DNA of 64,000 bases from Aristaeella hokkaidonensis (GTDB taxonomy: Bacteria > Bacillota > Clostridia > Christensenellales > Aristaeellaceae), in assembly GCF_018128945.1 (NCBI RefSeq), contig NZ_CP068393.1, positions 1,674,001-1,738,000 on the forward strand, written 5' to 3'. This document shows positions 48,847 through 61,331 of this stretch, in pieces. Position numbers and translations under genes: made by a program. The first letter of the stretch is position 1, and each line of letters starts with the position of its first letter. The notes below the pieces were generated by a model, which saw only the letters and a program-made list of their open reading frames with translations, was not told where the DNA came from and did no database searches.

Positions 48847-49113
48847 TCAAAAGAACAGCTTCCATTTGGAAGCTGTTCTCTCCACCATTTTTAAGTTATT
48901 GAGCAGTTGTCCAAATCTTTGATTTGGGCGAAGAGCCGATGACCGCCAGTGGCGGGAATCTCATCGGGTCTGAGGTCAATCGAAAGGGAGTAAGCTCTAC
49001 AGTGTAGAGTTGCGACCATTGAGATTGCGGAATACAACTGCCATGCTACAGCCGTCCATTTCTGCGAACCATAGGCGATGCAGAAATGGAATACGGCGAT
49101 CGCAAAGTTTTCA
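48847..49113 (+). repeat. Dispersed structured element, copy A
   Basis: Begins with hairpin AGAACAGCTTCC/GGAAGCTGTTCT, then TTAAGTTATTGAG, stem GCAGTTGT (48,903-48,910) with ACAACTGC (49,034-49,041), CATGCTACAG, and the core hairpin GCCGTCCATTTCTGC with GCAGAAATGG...ACGGC, ending GATCGCAAAGTTTTCA. This copy is longer than the others: about 120 nt inside the outer stem contain more small hairpins, such as CTCTACAGTGTAGAG. Same core and direction as copies at 58.5 and 61.2 kb. It fills most of the 450-bp gap between the M24 and thrC genes. Confidence 0.8.
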
Positions 49114-57359: not shown

Positions 57360-58223
57360 TTATCTCTCTTTTCCCATAAAGAACAGTGCCAGGGTTCCGG
57401 GACCGGCGTGGGCGCCGATTACAGAACCAATGCTGGTAATCAGCGTCACATCCATGCCGCATTCGTTCTTAATGATATCCTTCAGCATCTCTGCGTCTTC
57501 CAGGCAGTCAGCATTGGAAATGAAGATCGGGGAATCCGGCCGGATCGTCTGGCCCAGTTTCTCTGCCAGCGTCTTGATGGACTTTTTCCGTCCGTGCACC
57601 TGGGTCATCTTGATCAGGTGGCCTTCATTGTCCACATGCAGCACCGGCTTCACATTCAGCGCCGTACCCAGCAGAGCTGTGGCTGCGCTGACCCGTCCGC
57701 CGCGCTTCAGGTATACCAGGTCTTCCACCGTAAACCAGTGGCACACATGGGGAATCTCCTTCCGGAGCGCTTCCGCGTTTTCTTCCAGCGTCATGCCTGC
57801 GTCCCGGTTCTTCACGGCCAGATACACAAACAGGCCTTCGCCGGCGGAAGCGGACAGAGAATCGATCGCTTCGATTTTCCTGTCAGGATACTTTTTTGCC
57901 AGTCTTTCTGCAACCTTCTTGGCATTGTCAGGGGTCACGCTCAGTCCGCCGGACAATCCCAGGTACAGGATATCCTGACCAGCTTCAAGGATCTCAGTGA
58001 ACGCGTTTTCAAACGCGTCTTCATTGACGCAGGAGGTCTTGGCAACCCGTCCCGCGCGCATGGACTTGTAGAACTCGCCGATCGGTTCGTCGTGATCTTT
58101 CTGTTCCACGTTTGTATCTGTAAACAGGAACGCCAGCGGAAGCATCTTTACATTCCATTCCGCCAGTTTGTCCGGATGAATATCACAAGCGGAATCTGTA
58201 AACAATACATAATTCTCAGCCAT
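57360..58223 (-). CDS. DegV-family fatty-acid-binding protein
   Basis: 287 residues from ATG at 58,223 (AGGAGG six bases upstream; the frame extends seven codons further). Family motifs: FTDSACDI at the N-terminus, KTSCVNEDAF (~70), LGLSGGLSVT (~95), LVYLKRGGRVSAATALLG (~170) and the terminal GSVIGAHAGPGTLALFFMG. DegV/FakB proteins bind fatty acids and present them to the FakA kinase; no fakA is seen here. Confidence 0.93.
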   Translation of the reverse strand: MAENYVLFTDSACDIHPDKLAEWNVKMLPLAFLFTDTNVEQKDHDEPIGEFYKSMRAGRVAKTSCVNEDAFENAFTEILEAGQDILYLGLSGGLSVTPDNAKKVAERLAKKYPDRKIEAIDSLSASAGEGLFVYLAVKNRDAGMTLEENAEALRKEIPHVCHWFTVEDLVYLKRGGRVSAATALLGTALNVKPVLHVDNEGHLIKMTQVHGRKKSIKTLAEKLGQTIRPDSPIFISNADCLEDAEMLKDIIKNECGMDVTLITSIGSVIGAHAGPGTLALFFMGKER

Positions 58224-58272
58224 TTTTTTCCTCCTGCTATACACTGCCGGCCGGTAGGCCGGCGACAGTGAG

Positions 58273-58341: not shown

Positions 58342-58371
58342 TTGACAACCTTCCCCTTCCGGGCATATAGT
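58342..58371 (+). promoter_or_regulatory. Sigma-A promoter of the Phe leader-paaK-ACT operon
   Basis: Perfect TTGACA (58,342-58,347), 18 bp, TATAGT (58,366-58,371). Transcription would start about 40 nt before the leader peptide and about 380 nt before paaK. Confidence 0.8.
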
Positions 58372-58418
58372 CATTGCAACGGTAATGAGATCCGTTTTTC
58401 AGAAAGGAGATTTCAGCA

Positions 58419-58469
58419 ATGAAATCATTCGCAGCTATCTTCTTCTTTACCAAGTCAGCGATGGATTAA
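58419..58469 (+). CDS. Phe-rich leader peptide (attenuator)
   Basis: A 16-codon ORF, MKSFAAIFFFTKSAMD, with a strong ribosome binding site (AAAGGAG) nine bases upstream. Four of 16 residues are Phe, three of them consecutive (TTC TTC TTT at 58,440-58,448), as in the pheL and pheM leader peptides of enterobacteria. It is followed after 25 nt by an intrinsic terminator, in front of an aryl-acid CoA ligase gene. The inferred role is sensing charged tRNA-Phe. Confidence 0.75.
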   Translation: MKSFAAIFFFTKSAMD

Positions 58470-58493
58470 TCAGACGCACAGAGCGCTTTGAAT

Positions 58494-58532
58494 CCACCGC
58501 CTTTTGAGATGAAAAAAGGCGGTGGTTTTTTT
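58494..58532 (+). terminator. Attenuator terminator with competing antiterminator
   Basis: Terminator: CCACCGCCTTTT (58,494-58,505) pairs perfectly with AAAAGGCGGTGG (58,514-58,525), then TTTTTTT. Antiterminator: GCGATGGATT (58,458-58,467) pairs 9/10 with AATCCACCGC (58,491-58,500), which uses the terminator's left arm. Protector: AATCATTCGC (58,423-58,432) inside the leader ORF can pair 8/10 with GCGATGGATT. A ribosome stalled on the Phe codons would free that strand and favour read-through. This is the classical 1:2, 2:3, 3:4 layout. Confidence 0.75.
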
Positions 58533-58534
58533 CT

Positions 58535-58676
58535 GGAAACTATCTGGCTTTCTTGATAGTTCCGCTCCATCGGTTGAGGATGCGTCTAAATCTCCGATTT
58601 GCGTAACGCTTCCCATGCTACAGCCGTCCATTACTGCAAGCCGAAGGCGCCGCAGAAATGGGTAACGGCGATCACA
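58535..58676 (+). repeat. Dispersed structured element, copy B (in the paaK leader)
   Basis: Starts right after the attenuator. Hairpin GGAAACTATC/GATAGTTCC, CTCCATCGGTTGA, outer stem GGATGCGT (58,578-58,585) with ACGCTTCC (58,606-58,613; one mismatch) enclosing AAATC/GATTT, then CATGCTACAG and core hairpin GCCGTCCATTACTGC with GCAGAAATGG...ACGGC. Same order as copies A and C, with different stem sequences. Confidence 0.75.
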
Positions 58677-58758
58677 GACCGATACCCATCGCTGACTAAT
58701 ACCTTAAGGCTTAATGCGCTCTACACAGTTTTGCAACATCACAAAGGAGTGAACGCTT

Positions 58759-60063
58759 ATGAAGAGATATTACCAGCCGGAAATTGAAACAGCCCCAAGG
58801 GAAAAAATCCTGGAAATCCAGAATGAAAAGCTCGTCAAACAAATCCACCATGTCTGGGACAACGTCCCCTATTACCGTCATCTGATGGAAGAGAGAGGTC
58901 TCACGCCGGATGATATCAAAACCGTGGACGACATCAAAAAGCTCCCCTTCCTCAGCAAAGCGGACCTGCGGGACACATATCCCTATGGACTGCTGGGCAC
59001 TGATCTGAAGGACTGTGTCCGCATCCATTCCACCTCCGGTACTACCGGCAAGCGTGTTGTCGCCTTCTACACCCAGCACGATATCGACCTGTGGGAAGAC
59101 TGCTGTGCCCGGGCGATCGTCGCTGCCGGCGGCACAGAAGAAGACGTGGTACAGGTTTGCTACGGCTACGGCCTCTTCACCGGCGGTTCCGGCCTGCATG
59201 GCGGTTCCCATAAGGTAGGCTGCCTGACCCTGCCCATGTCTTCCGGTAACACAGAGCGCCAGATCCAGTTCATGATGGACCTGGAATCCACCATCATCTG
59301 CTGCACGCCTTCCTACGCCGCCTACATCGGCGAATCCCTGAAAGAGCAGGGATTCAAGCCTGAAGATAACAAGCTCAAAGCCGGCATCTTCGGTGCGGAG
59401 CCCTGGACTGAAGAGATGCGCCATGAAATCGAAAAGAGCCTGGGTATCAAAGCCTACGATATCTACGGTCTCACTGAAACCAGCGGCCCCGGGGTGGCTT
59501 TCGAGTGTGAAGAGCAGAAGGGCATGCACATCAATGAAGACCACTTCTACGCTGAAATCATCGATCCCGATACAGGCGAAGTCCTGCCGGAAGGTTCTGT
59601 CGGTGAGCTGGTCTTCACCGCGCTGGATAAGGAAGCCTTCCCGCTGCTCCGCTACCGTACCCGTGACCTTTGCGTGCTGAACCGTACGCCCTGCTCCTGC
59701 GGCCGTACTCATGTCCGCATGGCCAAGCCCATGGGCCGCAGTGACGATATGCTAATCATCCGCGGCGTCAACGTCTTCCCGAGCCAGATCGAAACCGTCC
59801 TGCTCAACGAAGGCTATACGCCCAACTATCAGATCGTCCTCGACCGTGAACGGAACACTGATACCTTCGATGTCTATGTTGAAGTCAGTCCGGACCAGTT
59901 CTCCGACCTGATGGGCCAGATCCAGAAGATGGAAAAGGGGCTTGAGTCCGCCATGCGCACAATGCTTGGTATCGGACCCAAGATCCACCTGGTTGCCCCC
60001 AAGACCATTACCCGCAGCGAAGGTAAAGCCGTCCGCGTCATCGACAAACGCAAACTCCACTGA
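58759..60063 (+). CDS. paaK: Phenylacetate-CoA ligase
   Basis: 434 residues, start behind AAAGGAG. ANL-superfamily adenylating enzyme of the PaaK type: phosphate-binding STSGTTGKRVVAFYT (~95), YGYGLFTGGSGLHGG (~135), FGAEPWTEEMR (~215), YDIYGLTETSGPG (~235), RTRDLCVL (~295) with a CSCGRTH Cys motif (~310), hinge GRSDDMLIIRGVNVFPSQIE (~330) and C-terminal Lys in SEGKAVRVIDKR. It makes an aryl-acetyl-CoA from phenylacetate (or indole-/hydroxyphenylacetate), ATP and CoA. In anaerobes such ligases can feed reductive carboxylation to the aryl pyruvate and so to Phe, which fits the Phe leader peptide upstream. Confidence 0.93.
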   Translation: MKRYYQPEIETAPREKILEIQNEKLVKQIHHVWDNVPYYRHLMEERGLTPDDIKTVDDIKKLPFLSKADLRDTYPYGLLGTDLKDCVRIHSTSGTTGKRVVAFYTQHDIDLWEDCCARAIVAAGGTEEDVVQVCYGYGLFTGGSGLHGGSHKVGCLTLPMSSGNTERQIQFMMDLESTIICCTPSYAAYIGESLKEQGFKPEDNKLKAGIFGAEPWTEEMRHEIEKSLGIKAYDIYGLTETSGPGVAFECEEQKGMHINEDHFYAEIIDPDTGEVLPEGSVGELVFTALDKEAFPLLRYRTRDLCVLNRTPCSCGRTHVRMAKPMGRSDDMLIIRGVNVFPSQIETVLLNEGYTPNYQIVLDRERNTDTFDVYVEVSPDQFSDLMGQIQKMEKGLESAMRTMLGIGPKIHLVAPKTITRSEGKAVRVIDKRKLH

Positions 60064-60131
60064 TATAATATAGAAAAACATTGCACGTTCCTTATGTCAT
60101 CCTTTCTCTTTTCGGCATGAACCCAAGCAAT

Positions 60132-60164
60132 AATTCTGAATTCTGAATTCTTAATTCTGAATTG
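60132..60164 (+). repeat. Short AATTCTGAATTC-like tandem repeat
   Basis: About four degenerate copies of a TTCTGAA unit between paaK and the ACT gene. It resembles the ATTATGAATT repeat at ~54,640, so these look like dispersed low-complexity intergenic repeats. Confidence 0.6.
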
Positions 60165-60178
60165 AACAGGAGGTTCCT

Positions 60179-60604
60179 ATGGCTATTACGCAATTGTCCG
60201 TCTTTCTGATGAACCAGCCCGGCGCGCTGATCGAAGCCATCCAGGCCCTTTCCGACGCAGGCATCAATATCCGTGCCATGAGTATTGCCGAAGCCAATGA
60301 CTTTGGTATTCTCCGCATCATCGTTTCCGATACTGACACCGCCTGCAAGGTCCTGGGTGATAAGTATCTCTTCTCCAAAACAGAAGTGGTTGCCGCACTC
60401 ATGAGCGACCGCAGCGGCGCCCTCTACCCCATCCTTACGGCTCTCAACGAGGCAAACATCAATATTGAATATATGTACGCTTTCACCGGTTCCGGCCCGG
60501 AAGAAGCCTATGTGGTCATCCGGGTCAATGATGTAAAAACCGCGGAAGAGCTGCTGAATGCCAACGGCATCCGGACTCTTTCCGATGAAAGCCTGAAAAT
60601 CTGA
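60179..60604 (+). CDS. Tandem ACT-domain amino-acid-binding protein
   Basis: 141 residues, start behind AGGAGG. Two ACT domains: residues ~3-70 (QLSVFLMNQPGALIEAIQALSDAGINIRAM) and ~72-141 (ALMSDRSGALYPILTALNEANINIEYMYAF). No catalytic domain is present. Stand-alone tandem ACT proteins of this type commonly sit beside PaaK-like ligases and may sense an aromatic amino acid; effector not shown. Separated from paaK by 115 bp with no terminator. Confidence 0.9.
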   Translation: MAITQLSVFLMNQPGALIEAIQALSDAGINIRAMSIAEANDFGILRIIVSDTDTACKVLGDKYLFSKTEVVAALMSDRSGALYPILTALNEANINIEYMYAFTGSGPEEAYVVIRVNDVKTAEELLNANGIRTLSDESLKI

Positions 60605-61167: not shown

Positions 61168-61331
61168 TCAAAAGAACAGCTTCCGCTCCGGAAGCTGTTC
61201 TCCCCACCATTATTAAGTTATTGAGGAGTCATCCGTGCTTTAGCACGGCTAATGACTCCCATGCTACAGTCGTCCATTTCTGCAAGCCATAGGCGCCGCA
61301 GAAATGGATTACGACGATCGCAAAGTTTTCA
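61168..61331 (+). repeat. Dispersed structured element, copy C
   Basis: Hairpin AGAACAGCTTCC/GGAAGCTGTTCT, TTAAGTTATTGA, outer stem GGAGTCAT (61,225-61,232) with ATGACTCC (61,252-61,259) enclosing CCGTGC/GCACGG, then CATGCTACAG and core hairpin GTCGTCCATTTCTGC with GCAGAAATGG...ACGAC. Compared with copy A, three outer-stem pairs and one core pair are changed on both sides. Confidence 0.8.

Follow-up and report, generated by a model that had tools for sequence, protein, structure and literature searches.

A candidate phenylalanine-sensing leader-peptide attenuator of paaK in Aristaeella hokkaidonensis and putative re-codable attenuator scaffolds in related Clostridia

Overview

We analysed a 64,000-nt stretch (the window) of the Aristaeella hokkaidonensis genome (GCF_018128945.1, contig NZ_CP068393.1, positions 1,674,001-1,738,000, forward strand), in which a phenylalanine (Phe)-rich leader open reading frame (ORF) and an intrinsic terminator precede the phenylacetate-CoA ligase-like gene paaK and a gene for an ACT domain protein. 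This region is very probably a ribosome-mediated transcription attenuator, which would sense charged tRNA-Phe and control paaK-ACT as a salvage step from phenylacetate to Phe. More widely, the gut and rumen Clostridia probably contain at least two unrelated attenuator scaffolds that can be re-coded, with a fixed antiterminator and terminator and an exchangeable codon cassette (Phe for paaK and pheA, Tyr/Phe for aro genes, Trp for trpB and Tyr for a transporter). With the Phe T-boxes and one further leader type (locus L011) counted in, Phe control of paaK would have arisen several times.

The candidate attenuator upstream of paaK

The promoter, the 16-codon leader ORF with FFF, the 9/10 antiterminator and the 12-bp terminator with seven T, which the first-pass annotation had described in front of paaK, were all confirmed in the sequence (Table 1); these four parts are real and beyond chance. 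Strand GCGATGGATT makes 9 of 10 pairs with AATCCACCGC, and the antiterminator fold is composed of GCGAUGGAUU paired with AAUCCACCGC, containing a single A-C mismatch and enclosing a hairpin. The antiterminator segment folds with -16.7 kcal/mol (z -4.05) and the terminator with -22.2 kcal/mol (z -5.58), and in both cases none of 200 shuffles was equally stable. Only one ORF of 8-35 aa that contains FFF and is preceded by a Shine-Dalgarno (SD) sequence was found on both strands of the window, namely the paaK leader, and a terminator lies within 110 nt of its stop codon. In 100 dinucleotide shuffles the mean number of such ORFs was 0.05, none of them with a terminator.

Table 1. Features of the paaK locus (window positions)
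Feature	Position	Strand	Remark
Promoter TTGACA-18-TATAGT	58342..58371	+	11/12 consensus matches
Shine-Dalgarno AAAGGAG of leader ORF	58403..58409	+	sequence
Leader ORF MKSFAAIFFFTKSAMD plus stop, 16 codons	58419..58469	+	Phe codons TTC TTC TTT at 58440-58448
Antiterminator 5' strand GCGATGGATT	58458..58467	+	codons Ala-Met-Asp and start of stop codon
Small hairpin inside antiterminator loop	58471..58490	+	core constant, outer pairs differ among orthologs
Antiterminator 3' strand AATCCACCGC	58491..58500	+	overlaps left arm of terminator
Intrinsic terminator	stem 58494-58525, T7 58526-58532	+	12 pairs, 7 G-C
paaK, AMP-forming phenylacetate-CoA ligase-like, 434 aa	58759..60063	+	family and structure matches
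ACT domain-pair protein (ACT_8), 141 aa	60179..60604	+	presumed cotranscribed with paaK
Dispersed repeat	58611..58676	+	between attenuator and paaK
CCATCGCTGAC	58686..58696	+	exact complement of leader tail GTCAGCGATGG
DegV-family gene	57360-58244	divergent from leader	common to many loci of the genus

Conservation within the genus

The paaK search covered 45 genomes of the genus, 38 of which gave a match at E <= 1e-150. We counted 26 full-length orthologs of at least 85% identity and left out one more, partial ortholog (G168). Homologs without a Phe-rich ORF or a terminator were sought as a refutation: leader and terminator were both present in 21 of the 26 and both absent in the other five. 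Two further genera each have a locus with the same device (L007, L027).

The alignment was composed of 21 leaders, 20 distinct ones from the genus (L052 duplicates L001) and that of L007. The sequences GCGATGGA and CCACCGCCTTTT and three T of the T-run are invariant in all 21, with the spacer and the upstream part varying. The Phe run is FFF in 18 leaders and FAF in three (L006, L055, L058), followed by three residues and then AMD; these FAF variants aside, the three Phe codons differ at third positions only. For the antiterminator segment, the lowest-energy predicted fold is the antiterminator itself in 21/21. Such an alignment had been proposed as a check for conserved Phe codons and hairpins, and both were borne out. 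Purine-rich SD-like motifs precede the orthologous leaders as well, in the printed sequences. By eye and without a count, TTGACA-like boxes were also seen upstream of many of them.

The enclosed hairpin gives modest covariation support. It keeps a C-G/G-C/C-G core, and its outer pairs are A-U/G-U/A-U in L056, L057 and L059, G-U in L008 and G-C in seven loci; L063 has U-A inside and G-C outside, and in L001, L004, L005, L053 and L054 the three core pairs alone stack directly. In a cruder anchored count, the outer pair was absent in 6 of 21 rows, some of them wrongly anchored.

Scaffold A before other aromatic genes

The leader end GCGATGGAT (Ala-Met-Asp) and the terminator arm ATCCACCGC together were named scaffold A. 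A search with R1, a model built from the paaK leaders, revealed more copies in the genus. At loci L183 and L219 the leader MRPYVSGFFFSRSAMD precedes a gene pair for prephenate dehydratase (PDT) and DAHP synthase, named by reading the ORFs and, for PDT, also by PF00800. The pattern GCGATGGATN{23,53}ATCCACCGC was matched 33 times, in 30 of the 308 family genomes searched, and its reversed control not once; two of the 33 (L212, L217) have no leader and overlap longer ORFs.

A broader covariance model (R2) was built from 18 scaffold-A leaders. In the 308 genomes it has 33 matches with E values up to 1.5e-14, of which 24 lie before paaK (at one, G170:C26, the contig ends just past the start codon) and nine before pheA or aro genes. 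Since the model was bound to recover its own 18 members, which include all nine matches at pheA/aro genes, and the others of the 33 had been known beforehand, R2 mainly indicates that these matches extend to no further gene class. The leaders at pheA/aro genes carry Phe or Tyr/Phe codons (for example FAYSYFYFYSIAMD, VFGYYYFRNAMD and MYYYFYFNTAMD), those at aro genes mixing Tyr and Phe. The aromatic run stops 2-3 codons before GCG in the printed scaffold-A leaders, with an extra Phe directly before GCG in L069; by our reasoning, this spacing would fit a stalled ribosome that leaves the antiterminator strand free.

Scaffold A on non-aromatic genes was considered and rejected, 20 weak R2 regions (part of the weak set) having been read and none found convincing. 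An ambiguous case is L300 (G039:C154), in which an AMD-like short ORF without a run of aromatic codons and a CCACCGC terminator precede a P-type-ATPase-like gene.

A second scaffold and a codon tally

The clade survey was composed of the best 80 of 596 relatives in a scan of GTDB genomes, mostly metagenome-assembled genomes (MAGs) from gut and rumen. In six loci (L084, L085, L087, L090, L096, L104) a scaffold B, unrelated to A, was found before paaK. Its leader has Phe alternating with Ser/Thr and the tail V-[ND]-L-[LS]-C, and its antiterminator, GGUURAU-U-UGCUAUGCU x GGUGUGGCA-C-AUUAACC, is formed in all six. Over the six sequences 94.8% of cells pair in the antiterminator, with one A-U to G-C double change in three of them, and 98.3% in the terminator, with double changes at three pairs; the covariation score was reached by 19 of 500 shuffles for the former and 1 of 500 for the latter.

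A model of scaffold B (R3) was run on 17 host genomes, of which 10 matched, and on 299 genomes of one family, of which 14 matched. Reading the ORFs behind the leaders, we found trpB leaders with Trp codons and also Phe (L338, L339, L348), a PDT leader with FFFF (L353), aroF leaders with Tyr/Phe (L340, L349-L352), a paaK leader (L347) and a sodium/solute symporter leader with YYYFYFY (L341). Among the 13 new matches in the 299-genome family, seven have leaders and five weak ones (L354-L358) have none by eye; for the match L346, which covers part of paaK, no leader could be recovered. At L342, outside these 13, no leader was found by reading. The Tyr-rich leader of L341 and a T-box of the window genome read as UAC (L043) stand before related symporters, a swap of the sensor with the same amino acid.

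We tallied the codons of 42 leaders, leaving out eight near-identical or duplicate scaffold-A leaders. The 23 paaK leaders contain 96 Phe, 14 Tyr and one Trp codon, and the three trpB leaders six Trp, 11 Phe and three Tyr; only two of the eight Trp codons in the 42 leaders lie outside those at trpB. By this tally codon content follows the gene, so that paaK looks like a Phe-biosynthesis gene. A fourth type of paaK leader, FYAYFYFYFFGFF with a terminator and without an SD sequence by our criterion, was seen once (L011, G024:C10).

T-boxes before paaK

The T-box binds uncharged tRNA directly, without translation. Like the paaK leader as we read it, a Phe T-box senses the charging of tRNA-Phe, and T-boxes were found directly upstream of paaK in 16 related loci outside the genus (that of L021 scores 88.5 bits, under the gathering score of 93). 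As specifier we took the triplet immediately 5' of the final base on the 3' side of the loop, a placement that we assume from general T-box structure; this triplet mostly follows GAA, directly or with one base between (GUA in L146). It reads UUC (Phe) in 16/16. For calibration, the T-boxes of the window genome were read too: an aminotransferase-tyrS pair is preceded by UAC, and genes resembling trpE and trpB by UGG; this calibration is partial, since 5 of the 11 T-boxes of the genome (L041, L047, L049-L051) are unreadable by the same rule. These 11 matches all lie elsewhere in the genome, three of them above the gathering score. Within the window, no family of the Rfam library matched at the gathering threshold and no T-box covariance match was found upstream of this paaK.

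Three of the paaK loci with a T-box also have iorB upstream (L129, L132, L149). Another T-box of the window genome, L046 (G000:C1:2102032-2102276), was read as UUC and precedes an ABC-transporter-like substrate-binding protein, possibly a Phe transporter.

Distribution of the devices

A quick tree was made of 128 paaK proteins and an outgroup, leaving out 6 of 134 loci that repeat a genome. It needs two changes for scaffold A (23 rows), two for scaffold B (six rows) and three for the T-box (16 rows); starred branches force at least two changes for scaffold A, at least two for the T-box and one for scaffold B. These counts indicate that the Phe devices are clustered and not of single origin without loss.

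PaaK and the aromatic genes of the genome

The best solved-structure matches of PaaK are the phenylacetate-CoA ligases 4r1l, 2y4o and 2y27. The protein likely works like a phenylacetate-CoA ligase, though its score lies under the equivalog cut-off of TIGR02155. Of 134 homologous loci, 129 have an ACT homologue after paaK. A search for iorAB elsewhere in the genome had been suggested, and it revealed two genes above the family cut-off for the alpha subunit of indolepyruvate-type ferredoxin oxidoreductase (IOR), both with iorB. The one at C1:305810 has iorB and another paaK-like ligase beside it and adjoins a T-box; at C1:1637435 the order is ligase-iorA-iorB.

The genome also has its own PDT gene, in the order aroF-tyrA-pheA (names by ORF reading), and paaK would therefore be a parallel route and not a replacement. 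PDT was found in 38 of 45 genomes of the genus and in 13/13 of those of high quality. Scaffold A was looked for on this own operon and not found; a different, Tyr/Phe leader stands there (MRQAFVYYYYYFTFTKTV plus stop; L255, C1:3233705), with a terminator-like hairpin by eye. Among the aroF orthologs of the genus, 11 of 26 have a leader of the MRQAFVYYYYYFTFTKTV type by our criterion.

Proposed mechanism and its weighing

Considering the parts, geometry, conservation and codon-gene match seen in the sequences, we infer the following switching and pathway direction. Transcription from the promoter would produce the leader RNA. When Phe is plentiful, the ribosome would translate all three Phe codons, reach the stop codon and cover GCGAUGGAUU, so that the terminator would form and paaK-ACT would not be transcribed. 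When Phe is short, the ribosome would stall on UUC-UUC-UUU, three codons upstream, leaving GCGAUGGAUU free; this strand would pair with AAUCCACCGC, with the small hairpin in the loop, and sequester the left arm of the terminator, allowing read-through into paaK-ACT. PaaK and the IOR encoded elsewhere would then convert phenylacetate to phenylacetyl-CoA, phenylpyruvate and Phe. That paaK is a biosynthetic salvage gene, as the first-pass annotation had proposed, gains support from the occurrence of the same scaffold with Phe codons before PDT and from the uniform UUC specifiers of the paaK T-boxes.

Several observations weigh against this proposal. No such device was found in 82 of the 128 paaK loci of the tree, of which 48 lie behind iorA/iorB and 34 are others; all 34 were searched with Rfam, part of them only at the gathering score, and loci with short upstream sequence are not judgeable. 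No SD-preceded Phe-rich leader was found within 420 nt before iorA (33 loci with its start in the fetched DNA), and 13 iorA-preceded paaK loci gave no Rfam T-box at the gathering score. (At L103, a Tyr-rich SD-preceded ORF of 36 codons lies upstream of iorA, about 2480 bases upstream of paaK.) Within the genus, the five orthologs without the device (L060, L061, L067, L070, L072) form one group of the tree, with modest support (SH-aLRT 93). The antiterminator core never varies among the 21 aligned leaders and thus yields no covariation. PaaK scores 523.1 bits, compared with an equivalog cut-off of 646.3 for TIGR02155, and with its own PDT the genome, judged by its gene content, does not depend on the phenylacetate route. 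A protector stem within the leader ORF is a feature of trp and his attenuators; the protector pairing noted in the first pass is present here with at best 8/10 pairs (G-U counted), but 172 of 200 shuffles match or beat it, and in 0/21 aligned leaders is a protector beyond chance (score reached by less than 5% of shuffles). In our judgement the protector is an accessory and not a defining feature of leader-peptide attenuators.

The alternative that deserves most attention, though it is improbable, accepts the attenuator as real and assigns PaaK-ACT to Phe catabolism or phenylacetate detoxification, with the leader sensing general translation stress. The aerobic degradation of phenylacetate is the setting in which PaaK is best known. 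Work mentioned in the accessible part of PMC13285125 places a Bacteroides IOR in the conversion of Phe to phenylacetate. However, the device would turn the gene off at plentiful Phe, the opposite of what catabolism needs, and both the scaffold-A leader with Phe codons at PDT and the paaK T-boxes of other clades, read as Phe and likewise induced by Phe starvation, speak for synthesis. No phenylacetate-degradation family matched among the six other neighbouring proteins scanned, and the same part of PMC13285125 itself makes the case that acyl-CoA synthesis is the favoured direction of AMP-forming ligases.

It is still less likely that the leader senses tyrosine or aromatic amino acids in general: many paaK leaders do contain one Tyr, and sibling scaffolds at aro genes mix Tyr and Phe, but the codons at fixed distance are FFF or FAF in every aligned paaK leader, with Tyr outside the run, and the Tyr-rich and Trp-containing versions sit on other genes. 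Short FFF ORFs can arise in random DNA, and five orthologs of the genus are without the device, so a chance micro-ORF beside the ordinary terminator of an upstream transcript was also considered. It is hardly credible, because the upstream gene is divergent and this terminator ends no upstream transcript, no shuffle reproduced the arrangement, the device recurs in most of the orthologs, and strong matches elsewhere precede aromatic genes. A Phe-sensing attenuator of a salvage gene thus remains our preferred reading.

Relation to known systems

Enterobacterial leaders of the pheL/pheM type contain tandem Phe codons and mutually exclusive antiterminator and terminator hairpins before Phe genes. 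By description, the paaK leader shares both features. It differs in having its own scaffold, no protector beyond chance, a location in gut Clostridia and paaK-ACT instead of pheA or pheST as target. Gram-positive leader-peptide attenuation, sometimes in place of T-boxes, is also described in the accessible parts of PMC9413887 (His attenuators in Eubacteriales), PMC2965389 (leader peptides for hisS paralogs in Firmicutes) and PMC5794164 (the Leu-rich ilv attenuator of Staphylococcus aureus). These systems concern other amino acids and genes, and those parts mention neither paaK nor a re-coded scaffold. The uORFC-13-1 motif upstream of aroF in Acholeplasma (PMC8632094, accessible part) is a candidate Phe-codon upstream ORF before a terminator; set side by side by description, it shares with the paaK leader the Phe-codon ORF, the terminator and an aromatic gene, and differs in lineage and gene.

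In the parts of the open-licence literature available to us, with subscription journals mostly outside, no attenuator or T-box on paaK was found described, and the words paaK and phenylacet are absent from the main texts of PMC2494555 and PMC3766115. We regard the mechanism as known, the two scaffolds as found nowhere described in the open-licence literature searched, and paaK as a new target. The present leaders would add to the leader-peptide attenuators of Firmicutes, where T-boxes are usual, with scaffolds whose amino acid apparently changes by swapping codons.

In people, phenylacetylglutamine is made from phenylacetate. Whether IOR and an AMP-forming arylacetate-CoA ligase degrade or make aromatic amino acids in gut anaerobes is treated as an open question in the accessible part of PMC13285125, which leans to biosynthesis. 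A Phe-starvation switch on the ligase gene, with unrelated sensors across clades, suggests a testable answer, that the system makes Phe, with a bearing on phenylacetate levels in gut and rumen. If true, this convergence of sensors would settle from sequence alone that paaK-ACT/IOR is a Phe-making salvage route from phenylacetate. It would also give a gene-level account of the old observation on rumen bacteria: Phe synthesis from phenylacetate is named as possible in the rumen context in the accessible part of PMC7356843, citing Allison 1965.

Other features of the locus

A second regulator between the terminator and paaK was considered and rejected, the segment proving to be a dispersed repeat of about 65 bp with further copies at 61257-61322 and 49041-49104 (83-88% identical). 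In one MAG, two TPP riboswitches lie within 450 bases downstream of paaK-ACT (L140:6632-7078). A complement like CCATCGCTGAC is not beyond chance in 13 of the 21 aligned loci; in the other eight, at varying distance 3' of the terminator, at most 8 of 500 shuffles reach it, and this complement may act on the read-through transcript.

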